A stretch of DNA of 51,464 nucleotides, taken from Verrucomicrobiota bacterium. GTDB taxonomy: Bacteria; Verrucomicrobiota; Verrucomicrobiia; Limisphaerales; UBA9464. The notes under the pieces are model-generated. The model saw nothing but the letters and a program-made list of their open reading frames with translations. It had not been told where the DNA came from and did not search any database. The position numbers and the translations under genes are program-made. The stretch is taken from assembly GCA_008933025.1 (NCBI GenBank), contig WBXI01000006.1:1-51464 (forward strand), given 5' to 3'. Positions 2 to 2,893 of the stretch are shown piece after piece (within the stretch, counting starts at the first letter, position 1; each line of letters opens with the position of its first letter).

Positions 2-1120
2 GCCGCGTCCTGGCTCCGGTTCATGGGACTTTTCTGGGCCACCGCCCCCATCGCCTGGCTCTACGCCATCCCGGTCGAACGCCTCGCCGATTCCCTCGCG
101 GCCGCCCGGTTCAACGTCGCCTTGCTCGCCGTCGTCTCGCTCTGGCGCGTCCTCCTGATCGCCCGCGCGACCAGTGTCCTCCACGCCGTCCCTTTCGTCG
201 CCGCCCTCGCCTGGGTGGTGTCCGCCGCATGCCTCGAGGTGACCGCCGTCTACATTTTCGGGCCCGGCCTCGCCCGGGACATCATGGCCGGGATGGGCGG
301 CCTGCGGAATTCCCCGGAGGAAAACCTTTTGCTCGGCGCGCTCCATCGGGCCACGAACGCCGCGATCCTCGCCTTCGTCCCGGCCGTCCTCGTCGGGATC
401 GCGGCACGACGGTGGCACAAGTCGCCCGTCGCGGCCGGCGTGGTCCCCGCCCCGGCGCCGCTCCCGTGGAAGACCTTCGCCGCCCTCGCCGCCTTCTGGA
501 TCGCCGTCGCCATCCCCGCCCAGCGCGAAGTCCGGCTCAACGCCGAACTCGATGCCCTCGTCGCGGCCGGGCGTTGGCGCGAGGCACTCGACCACCTCGC
601 GGCCCATGGTCCGAAAGCCTACGCGCCTTCGCGCCAGCTTCCCCCGAAGGCGTTCGAATATTCCGTCTTCACCCAATTGCCCGACCTGTTGGGTGCCCTG
701 GCCACCAACGACCCGCCCTGGCTCCACGCGCATCTCCTCCGGCGCTGGAACATCCTCGCTTCCCACCTCGGGTACGTTCCCGCGACCGACGGTCCCCATC
801 CGACGGTCGACGACGAATACGTCGGCTGGCGCGGCTACATGGCCTGCCGCGAACTCGGGCCCGATGTCCTGATCCGCGCGCTCGACGGCCTCGAGTGCTC
901 CGCTTCGGGGCGAGCCTGGGTGAGCAACAACGTCGCGATGTTCGCGTTTGCCGCGGAGCACGCCGCGCCGGGGAGCCGGCAAATCGATGGAACGAACCCA
1001 CCCCCGTCCGGGTCTGCCGCCGACATGCGGCGACTGGGCGAGCGTCTCGCCCGCCACCCGAAGCCCCGAACTTCCGGCTTGCCCCGGACCGGGGCTTCTG
1101 GCGACGGTGCGTCGCGATGA
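2..1120 (+). CDS. Hypothetical membrane protein, 5'-truncated by the window edge (open frame runs upstream of the ATG at 23)
   Basis: ORF 23..1120; frame is open back to base 2 and encodes hydrophobic residues; several predicted TM stretches then a soluble C-terminal part. Confidence 0.6.
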   Translation, partial: AASWLRFMGLFWATAPIAWLYAIPVERLADSLAAARFNVALLAVVSLWRVLLIARATSVLHAVPFVAALAWVVSAACLEVTAVYIFGPGLARDIMAGMGGLRNSPEENLLLGALHRATNAAILAFVPAVLVGIAARRWHKSPVAAGVVPAPAPLPWKTFAALAAFWIAVAIPAQREVRLNAELDALVAAGRWREALDHLAAHGPKAYAPSRQLPPKAFEYSVFTQLPDLLGALATNDPPWLHAHLLRRWNILASHLGYVPATDGPHPTVDDEYVGWRGYMACRELGPDVLIRALDGLECSASGRAWVSNNVAMFAFAAEHAAPGSRQIDGTNPPPSGSAADMRRLGERLARHPKPRTSGLPRTGASGDGASR

Positions 1121-1224
1121 AGGTTCGGCGACACGTCGACGGCCCGTCCGGGACCAATGGTTCCCGGGCGAACCGCATCATTGGGGAGAACATCATTATC
1201 GGCGGCGCAAGCCGGCCTTGCTGA
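1117..1224 (+). CDS. Candidate Ile-rich leader peptide MKVRRHVDGPSGTNGSRANRIIGENIIIGGASRPC
   Basis: ATG overlaps the stop of the upstream ORF (ATGA); five Ile codons in eight (1177..1200), followed by a strong hairpin and then cimA. Confidence 0.4.
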   Translation: MKVRRHVDGPSGTNGSRANRIIGENIIIGGASRPC

Positions 1225-1243
1225 GCGAGTTTTCCCCGAACCG

Positions 1244-1276
1244 AAAACCCCGTTCCGCAGGCCGGAACGGGGTTTT
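1244..1276 (+). terminator. 14-bp perfect stem-loop (AAAACCCCGTTCCG / CGGAACGGGGTTTT), terminator or attenuator upstream of cimA
   Basis: Perfect inverted repeat with 5-nt loop, ending in TTTTGGTTTT. Confidence 0.6.
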
Positions 1277-1321
1277 GGTTTTCCGGACCCCACTTTTCGA
1301 GACACCCTCCGACACTCCTCC

Positions 1322-2893
1322 ATGAAATCCCACGTCGAGATCTACGACACGACCCTGCGCGACGGCTCGCAGGGCGAAGGCGTCAACTTTTCGGTCGCCG
1401 ACAAGCTCCGCATCGCCGAGCGCCTCGACCAGTTCGGCATGCACTTCATCGAGGGCGGCTGGCCGGGCTCGAATCCCAAGGACATCGAGTTCTTCGCGCA
1501 GGCCAAGCGGCGCAAGTGGCGCCACGCGCGCCTCGCGGCTTTCGGTTCCACCCGGCGCAAGGGCGTCGCCGTCGAATCCGACGAACAGGTGCGCCTCCTC
1601 CTCGAGGCCGGCACGCCCGTCGTGACGATCTACGGGAAGACCTCGATGCTCCATGTCCGCGAGGTGCTGCGCTGCACGCCGGAGGAAAACCTCGCGATGA
1701 TCGGCGACACGGTCCGCTACCTGAAGGACCACGGGAAATTCGTCGTGTACGACGCGGAACACTGTTTCGACGGCTTCAAACTCGACCCGGAATACGCGCT
1801 CGCCTCCTGGCAGGCCGCGGAGAAAGCCGGCGCGGACCGGGTGGTCCTCTGCGACACCAACGGCGGGTGCCTGCCCGGCGAGGTCGCGCGGATCACGGCC
1901 CACGCGATCGGCCGGCTGAACTGCCCGGTCGGCATCCATTCGCACGACGACAGCGGCCTCGGGGTGGCCAACGCGCTGGCGTCCGTCGAGTCCGGCGCGA
2001 TGCACGTGCAGGGCACCGTGAACGGCTACGGCGAGCGCACGGGCAATTGCAATCTCGTCAGCACCATCCCCTGCCTTGCCCTCAAGATGGGCCGGCGCAC
2101 CGTCGCCCCCGGTTCGCTGCGCAAGCTCCGGGACTTGTCCCAGTTCGTCGACGAGATGGCGAACATCCGGCCGAACCCGCGCCAACCCTGGGTGGGTTCC
2201 GCGGCTTTCGCCCACAAGGGCGGCACCCACGTCAACGCCGTCCAGAAACTCGCCTCCAGCTACGAGCACGTCGACCCGTCGCTCGTCGGCAACGCGCGCA
2301 ACATCCTCGTCAGCGACCTCTCCGGCCGCAGCAACATCCTGCTCAAGGCCCGCGACCTCGGGTTCGATCTCGACGAATCGAAGCCCGACGCCAAGGCGAT
2401 CCTGCAACGCGTGAAGGAACTGGAGCACGAAGGCTACGAGTTCGAGGCCGCCGAGGCGTCGCTCGCGCTCCTCATCCGCGGCCTGGTCGAGAAGAACCCG
2501 GAACTGCTTTTCACCGTCGACGCCTTCCACGTCTCGACCCGCGGCACGCCCGCCTCGTCCGTCTGCGAGGCCACCGTCAAGGTTCGGGTCGGCAACGTCG
2601 TCCACCACACGGTCGCCGACGGCGACGGCCCGGTGAACGCGCTCGACGGTGCCCTCCGCTCCGCCCTCGCCCGCTCGTTCCCCAAACTCGCCAAGGTCAC
2701 CCTCACCGATTACAAGGTCCGCATCCTCGACGGCGTCGCCGGCACCGCCGCCCGCACCCGCGTCCTCATCGTGTCCGGCGACGGCACCCGCGAATGGGGC
2801 ACCGTCGGCGTCAGCGAGAACATCATCTCGGCGTCGCTCCAGGCACTGGTGGACTCCATGGAATACGCGCTGCTCCAGCGCCGCGGTCGCTGA
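1322..2893 (+). CDS. cimA: Citramalate synthase (isoleucine pathway; alpha-IPM synthase-like with C-terminal regulatory domain)
   Basis: N-terminus MKSHVEIYDTTLRDGSQGEGVNFSVADKLRIAERLDQFGMHFIEGGWPGSNPKD; HSHDDSGLGVAN motif. Confidence 0.93.
   Translation: MKSHVEIYDTTLRDGSQGEGVNFSVADKLRIAERLDQFGMHFIEGGWPGSNPKDIEFFAQAKRRKWRHARLAAFGSTRRKGVAVESDEQVRLLLEAGTPVVTIYGKTSMLHVREVLRCTPEENLAMIGDTVRYLKDHGKFVVYDAEHCFDGFKLDPEYALASWQAAEKAGADRVVLCDTNGGCLPGEVARITAHAIGRLNCPVGIHSHDDSGLGVANALASVESGAMHVQGTVNGYGERTGNCNLVSTIPCLALKMGRRTVAPGSLRKLRDLSQFVDEMANIRPNPRQPWVGSAAFAHKGGTHVNAVQKLASSYEHVDPSLVGNARNILVSDLSGRSNILLKARDLGFDLDESKPDAKAILQRVKELEHEGYEFEAAEASLALLIRGLVEKNPELLFTVDAFHVSTRGTPASSVCEATVKVRVGNVVHHTVADGDGPVNALDGALRSALARSFPKLAKVTLTDYKVRILDGVAGTAARTRVLIVSGDGTREWGTVGVSENIISASLQALVDSMEYALLQRRGR

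Follow-up and report, generated by a model that had tools for sequence, protein, structure and literature searches.

The locus upstream of cimA in this genome raises the question of what the short interval in front of the gene does, and whether the codons and hairpins in it form a regulatory switch. The window (the whole 51,464-nt stretch of DNA analysed) comes from an uncultured member of the Verrucomicrobiota (4.47 Mb, 86% complete) whose named relatives are Limisphaerales/subdivision 3 MAGs; the lineage is thus non-proteobacterial, as the sequence-only reading had assumed. The identification of the downstream gene as cimA was also correct, since its protein matches NCBIfam TIGR00977 with 696.6 bits (cut-off 450). 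The product, citramalate synthase, is the enzyme that commits carbon to isoleucine synthesis by way of pyruvate. A promoter-like motif, a 35-codon ORF and a 14-bp hairpin follow one another between the upstream ORF and cimA (Table 1). We propose, with a probability of about 0.92 and on the grounds of comparative sequence analysis and predicted folding, that this arrangement is a ribosome-mediated transcription attenuator of cimA which senses charged tRNA-Ile. The same-strand ORF upstream of the leader (23-1120) has a hydrophobic N-terminal half and gave no family match in Pfam or NCBIfam. Its TGA overlaps the leader ATG (ATGA); a coupling of this ORF to the leader is doubtful because the neighbouring genes here are not kept in relatives.

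Table 1 Features of the cimA leader region (positions in the window)
Feature	Positions	Strand	Evidence
Candidate promoter: hexamers TTGCCC and CGACGG with 17 nt between them; the second is weak and has TGG before it	1079..1107	+	
Leader peptide ORF, 35 codons, ATG start, UGA stop at 1222-1224	1117..1224	+	
Hairpin within the leader ORF, candidate pause hairpin	1148..1167	+	window and two closest relatives only
Control codons ATC ATT GGG GAG AAC ATC ATT ATC, five Ile	1177..1200	+	enrichment and position conserved
Segment able to pair with 1229-1237 (1:2 pairing, overlaps the Ile codons)	1183..1191	+	window folding
Putative antiterminator 5' arm (region 2), contains UGA 1222-1224	1220..1234	+	alignment, folding
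Region 3: putative antiterminator 3' arm, which the terminator uses as its 5' arm	1243..1258	+	
Predicted intrinsic terminator, 14-bp stem 1244-1257/1263-1276 and TTTTGGTTTT	1244..1282	+	
cimA, citramalate synthase, proposed target gene	1322..2893	+	TIGR00977 equivalog

The leader ORF, translated as MKVRRHVDGPSGTNGSRANRIIGENIIIGGASRPC, carries five Ile codons within eight (1177-1182 and 1192-1200), just as had been described. Five or more Ile codons within the 24 codons before the stop occurred in 0.56% of dinucleotide-preserving shuffles of the window leader. The run in the window alone is suggestive at most (p about 0.006), and it is therefore conservation that decides. The frame is open far upstream of 1117, so that no stop codon fixes the start of the leader. 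We located cimA in genomes at the level of genus, family and order and took the upstream DNA for comparison. Among 37 distinct leaders, the 24 codons before the UGA are 17.6% Ile when read in its frame, versus 2.0% and 2.5% in the other two frames. The Ile codons in 30 divergent representatives (identity below about 65%) numbered 121, where dinucleotide shuffles predicted 48 (z=12.8). Across the leader set, the Ile codons are concentrated at codons -7 to -15 relative to the stop; examples of the peptides are MYPIAIGIIAIGPGPCR (L087), ...MPMIGSIIIISGHRPC (L014) and ...ASIQAIGMIGRIGIRMIPGRSRCRHC (L024). Some leaders (L051, L026 and L007) have just one or two Ile codons each, which counts against the attenuator reading. 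The peptide outside the Ile run is not conserved from genus to genus. It had been asked whether the Ile codons are kept in relatives despite divergent flanks; they are, and judged by these comparisons the leader Ile codons are under selection across relatives while their flanks diverge.

The leader Ile codons are mostly ATT, although the genomes otherwise use ATC. ATT makes up 64% of the leader Ile codons versus 12% of those in cimA, an excess beyond the composition of the leaders, in which the T-ending share of other NNY codons is 37% (p=9e-5). This preference would be consistent with control codons that are read more slowly.

The stem-loop noticed after the ORF was confirmed as a perfect 14-bp stem with the loop CAGGC, and the U-tract that follows it (TTTTGGTTTT), earlier called imperfect, is interrupted. 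A terminator between the leader ORF and cimA is conserved in relatives; its pairs hold in 96.2% of cells and its covariation was above all shuffles. An alternative antiterminator fold was looked for as well, and it exists and is conserved. Region 2 with the UGA, CUGAACGAG, is near-invariant in 35 aligned leaders; its pairing partner is AAAACCCCGUUC, which also serves as the terminator 5' arm. When the 3' arm of the terminator is omitted, folding predicts this antiterminator in nearly all leaders, and 93.6% of cells keep its pairs, compared with 36-52% when the arms are slid. Its covariation is modest because the core pairs are nearly invariant, and such low variation is as expected of an arm serving two partners. 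Having one arm in common, the antiterminator and the terminator are mutually exclusive. The terminator is far more stable than the antiterminator (-25 versus -11 kcal/mol), and the switch must therefore be kinetic. This difference in stability, the interrupted U-tract and the modest covariation all count against the attenuator reading.

Constrained folding of the window leader showed that the antiterminator still forms with a ribosome at the first or the last Ile codon, and that a ribosome at the UGA prevents it while the terminator remains. When the window was folded without a ribosome, 1183-1191 paired with 1229-1237 and the terminator formed. A protecting 1:2 hairpin is present in classical leader-peptide attenuators. 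In the leaders compared here it is strong in the window but, with a mean z of -0.2, does not exceed chance over the 37 leaders, and it was set aside as a general feature. The other hairpin pointed out earlier, at about 1148-1167, does exist, with one bulged T; its assignment to the core of the switch was given up, as apart from the window only the two closest relatives were seen to have it. Folding of the entire 216-nt leader was more stable than that of shuffled sequences (z -3.8). A generic promoter/terminator scan of the window reported nothing at this locus and missed the hairpin because it is too strict for an interrupted U-tract.

Riboswitch and T-box systems use the same terminator/antiterminator platform, and a metabolite- or tRNA-binding riboswitch or a T-box might accordingly drive these two folds, the ORF being incidental. 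We consider this very improbable. Rfam gave no match at the gathering score (the best permissive match had E 0.33). On the 5' side of the UGA, the reading-frame content alone is conserved across genera and there is no obvious RNA structure. The leaders found at other genes of the pathway, described below, argue against it too, since their amino acid follows the pathway (Ile, Leu, Val).

With the covariance model R1, the element was found at cimA in 42 of the 43 family genomes that have cimA (two of the 42 are cut by contig ends), and all nine genus members carry it. In the sole family exception, G049, only the 3' part of cimA is present. Elsewhere in the order the element was found in two other families, f13 (five genomes, before cimA) and f33 (once, on a contig that ends 41 nt after the element). 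No further match came from 388 genomes drawn across the phylum, and the element is absent from the 66 other cimA loci with usable upstream DNA. A generic search for terminators within 150 nt upstream of cimA gave positives that were all element-bearing leaders. The distance from the leader stop codon to the cimA start is always 62-119 nt. The model matches cimA leaders strongly and gives no strong match elsewhere in the genomes; those of the weaker matches that were inspected as possible extra copies at other genes were ordinary terminators of unrelated genes. Several of the closest non-attenuated relatives (L039-L044) have, by eye, a TTGCCA-N17-TAGAAA-like promoter near the cimA ATG. One locus within the attenuated clade (L110, 171 nt of upstream DNA) may represent a loss of the element.

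These data bear on two other explanations. The hairpin sits between two same-strand genes, of which ORF 23-1120 on the upstream side stops at the leader ATG. The Ile codons form an AT-rich stretch within GC-rich DNA; the hairpin might thus be the terminator of the upstream gene and the Ile run a chance AT-rich patch, perhaps a part of the cimA promoter. However, the upstream neighbour genes vary among relatives while the element persists, region 2 with its UGA is invariant, and in 37 leaders a single reading frame holds the Ile enrichment. This frame-specific conservation leads us to regard such an explanation as already refuted, with hardly any probability left to it. Even less probable, in our opinion, is a free-standing small RNA gene or a trans-acting small protein. 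The promoter-like motif and the terminator could indeed belong to a gene of its own, but the element always lies 62-119 nt before cimA and has no strong model matches elsewhere in the genomes, and a functional small protein is hard to reconcile with a sequence that is not conserved between genera outside the Ile run.

The attenuator reading would have been contradicted by a cimA transcription start after the hairpin; the promoter-like motif precedes the leader ORF instead, and with it the whole switch. Each of the nine genus members has the motif TTG(T/C)C(A/C/G) at a distance of 35-39 nt upstream of an in-frame start codon (ATG or GTG). This spacing makes a transcription start at, or a few bases from, the leader start codon likely, and the leader ORF is probably located at or near the 5' end of the transcript.

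The frame-specific Ile enrichment and the conserved alternative folds thus speak for the Ile-sensing attenuator that had been suggested, and the following course of events can be proposed. RNA polymerase would start at the leader ATG or slightly before it, with a ribosome trailing behind. With ample Ile-tRNA, the ribosome would pass the Ile codons, reach the UGA in region 2 and cover this arm (1220-1234); regions 3 and 4 would then pair, the terminator would form and cimA would be off. If Ile-tRNA were short, the ribosome would stall 7-15 codons before the stop and leave region 2 free to pair with region 3, by which the terminator would be blocked and cimA transcribed. The sequences themselves provide the ORF, the in-frame Ile enrichment, the fixed distance of the Ile codons from the stop, both conserved folds and the specificity for cimA; from these we infer leader translation, stalling, termination and the response to starvation.

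Further leaders were found within the same genus. The leader before leuA (L182-L188, from G000:C313 and six other genus genomes; e.g. VDFRFSLLLALLAPLLSGAVARA) has 24.6% Leu and 0.8% Ile in its last 18 codons, with 1.6-7.9% Leu off-frame, and is followed by a terminator (CCCCUCCGCCGC...GCGGUGGGGUUUUUUG). The leader before ilvH (L208-L215; L213 in the window's genome, G000:C20, reads MLSAVLPVVGVSVLRD) contains 29.4% Val and 0.8% Ile, with 0.8-6.3% Val off-frame. It ends 171-225 nt before ilvH and is followed by a terminator; its stop context is GGGACUGA and the terminator reads GCCCGC..GUCC..GGACGCGGGUUUUCGAUUUU, a similar one being present at ilvH in other genera of the family. The enrichments at leuA and ilvH were less strictly tested than that at cimA because the stops were picked by eye. 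Both leaders have, again by eye, a similar layout consisting of a TTGACC-like motif, about 17 nt, a hexamer, about 7 nt and the start codon. We conclude that the two are probable leucine and valine attenuators, respectively, as far as codon content and terminators indicate. The ilvD upstream regions that were inspected had no obvious leader or terminator. In the window's genome, cimA, leuA and ilvH each have a leader. Different amino acids before different pathway genes are hard to explain except by codon-specific sensing, and the three leaders of the genus, one each for Ile, Leu and Val, serve as an internal control of specificity.

By its anatomy, the cimA leader would work like the leader-peptide attenuators of Proteobacteria, whose sequence-testable core features it possesses. 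Like the ilvGMEDA, ilvBN, leu, his and trp attenuators of E. coli and Salmonella, it has a short ORF whose control codons specify the amino acid produced, and mutually exclusive terminator and antiterminator folds in which the ribosome position would be the sensor. In contrast to them, it is found in another phylum, shares no sequence family with them and has cimA as its target; moreover, its UGA lies in the antiterminator arm, it has no conserved 1:2 hairpin and its start codon is apparently at or near the 5' end.

Corynebacterium and Leptospira are among the bacteria with known or suggested leader ORFs at ilvB (PMC10272879). The ilvB-II, ilvB-OMG and Leptospira ilvB motifs resemble the cimA leader in having an ORF rich in branched-chain codons before a branched-chain gene, with attenuation supported or proposed, but they precede ilvB and have mixed branched-chain codons (two of them with Thr), whereas the cimA leader is Ile-specific (PMC10272879). 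The actinobacterial leader ORFs of ilvB, leuA and cys similarly have Ile/Val/Leu runs by terminators or alternative structures, although both the genes and the structures are different (PMC1262725). A caution for our reading of cimA is that mutating similar control codons at ilvB of Streptomyces coelicolor was reported to be without effect on regulation (PMC1262725). His leader peptides before hisS paralogues in Firmicutes are, like the cimA leader, of the classical type outside Proteobacteria and Actinobacteria, but differ in phylum, amino acid and target; few such reports existed as of 2010 (PMC2965389). The literature searched, which excludes most subscription journals, contained no attenuation paper on Verrucomicrobiota or on cimA. 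The mechanism suggested by the sequences is very probably classical ribosome-mediated attenuation that is new for cimA and, in the literature searched, for Verrucomicrobiota.

The histories of cimA and of its leader are discordant. In the tree, the cimA proteins of the genus group with cimA of relatives without the attenuator; a second, separate clade comprises those of f13 and the remaining genera of the family. Constraining the genus and the other family members together was rejected (AU p=1.4e-5), as was constraining all attenuated cimA sequences together (p 3.5e-4), the constraint groups having been named after the first tree was seen. The loci concerned are cimA in the window (1322-2893) and L035, L037, L038, L007, L008 and L051. 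The leader RNA being clearly homologous, two courses are conceivable: the leader stayed in place and the coding sequence of cimA behind it was exchanged, or it was the leader that moved. Shared neighbourhood proved uninformative as a test of in-place replacement of cimA, the neighbours not being kept even within the genus.

On balance, we lean slightly towards a broader view in which ribosome-mediated attenuation is a general control of branched-chain synthesis in Limisphaerales (Ile at cimA, Leu at leuA, Val at ilvH), with leader ORFs at the 5' end and a portable switch: either a foreign copy took the place of the cimA of the genus while the leader stayed, or the leader itself moved. The switch should permit cimA expression only upon isoleucine shortage, and the cimA, leuA and ilvH leaders would form a testable regulon in uncultured bacteria. 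Leader-peptide attenuation would thereby be extended to a phylum and to a target, cimA, for which the literature searched gave no description, and the discord between gene tree and leader suggests that a regulatory leader can persist while the enzyme behind it changes.
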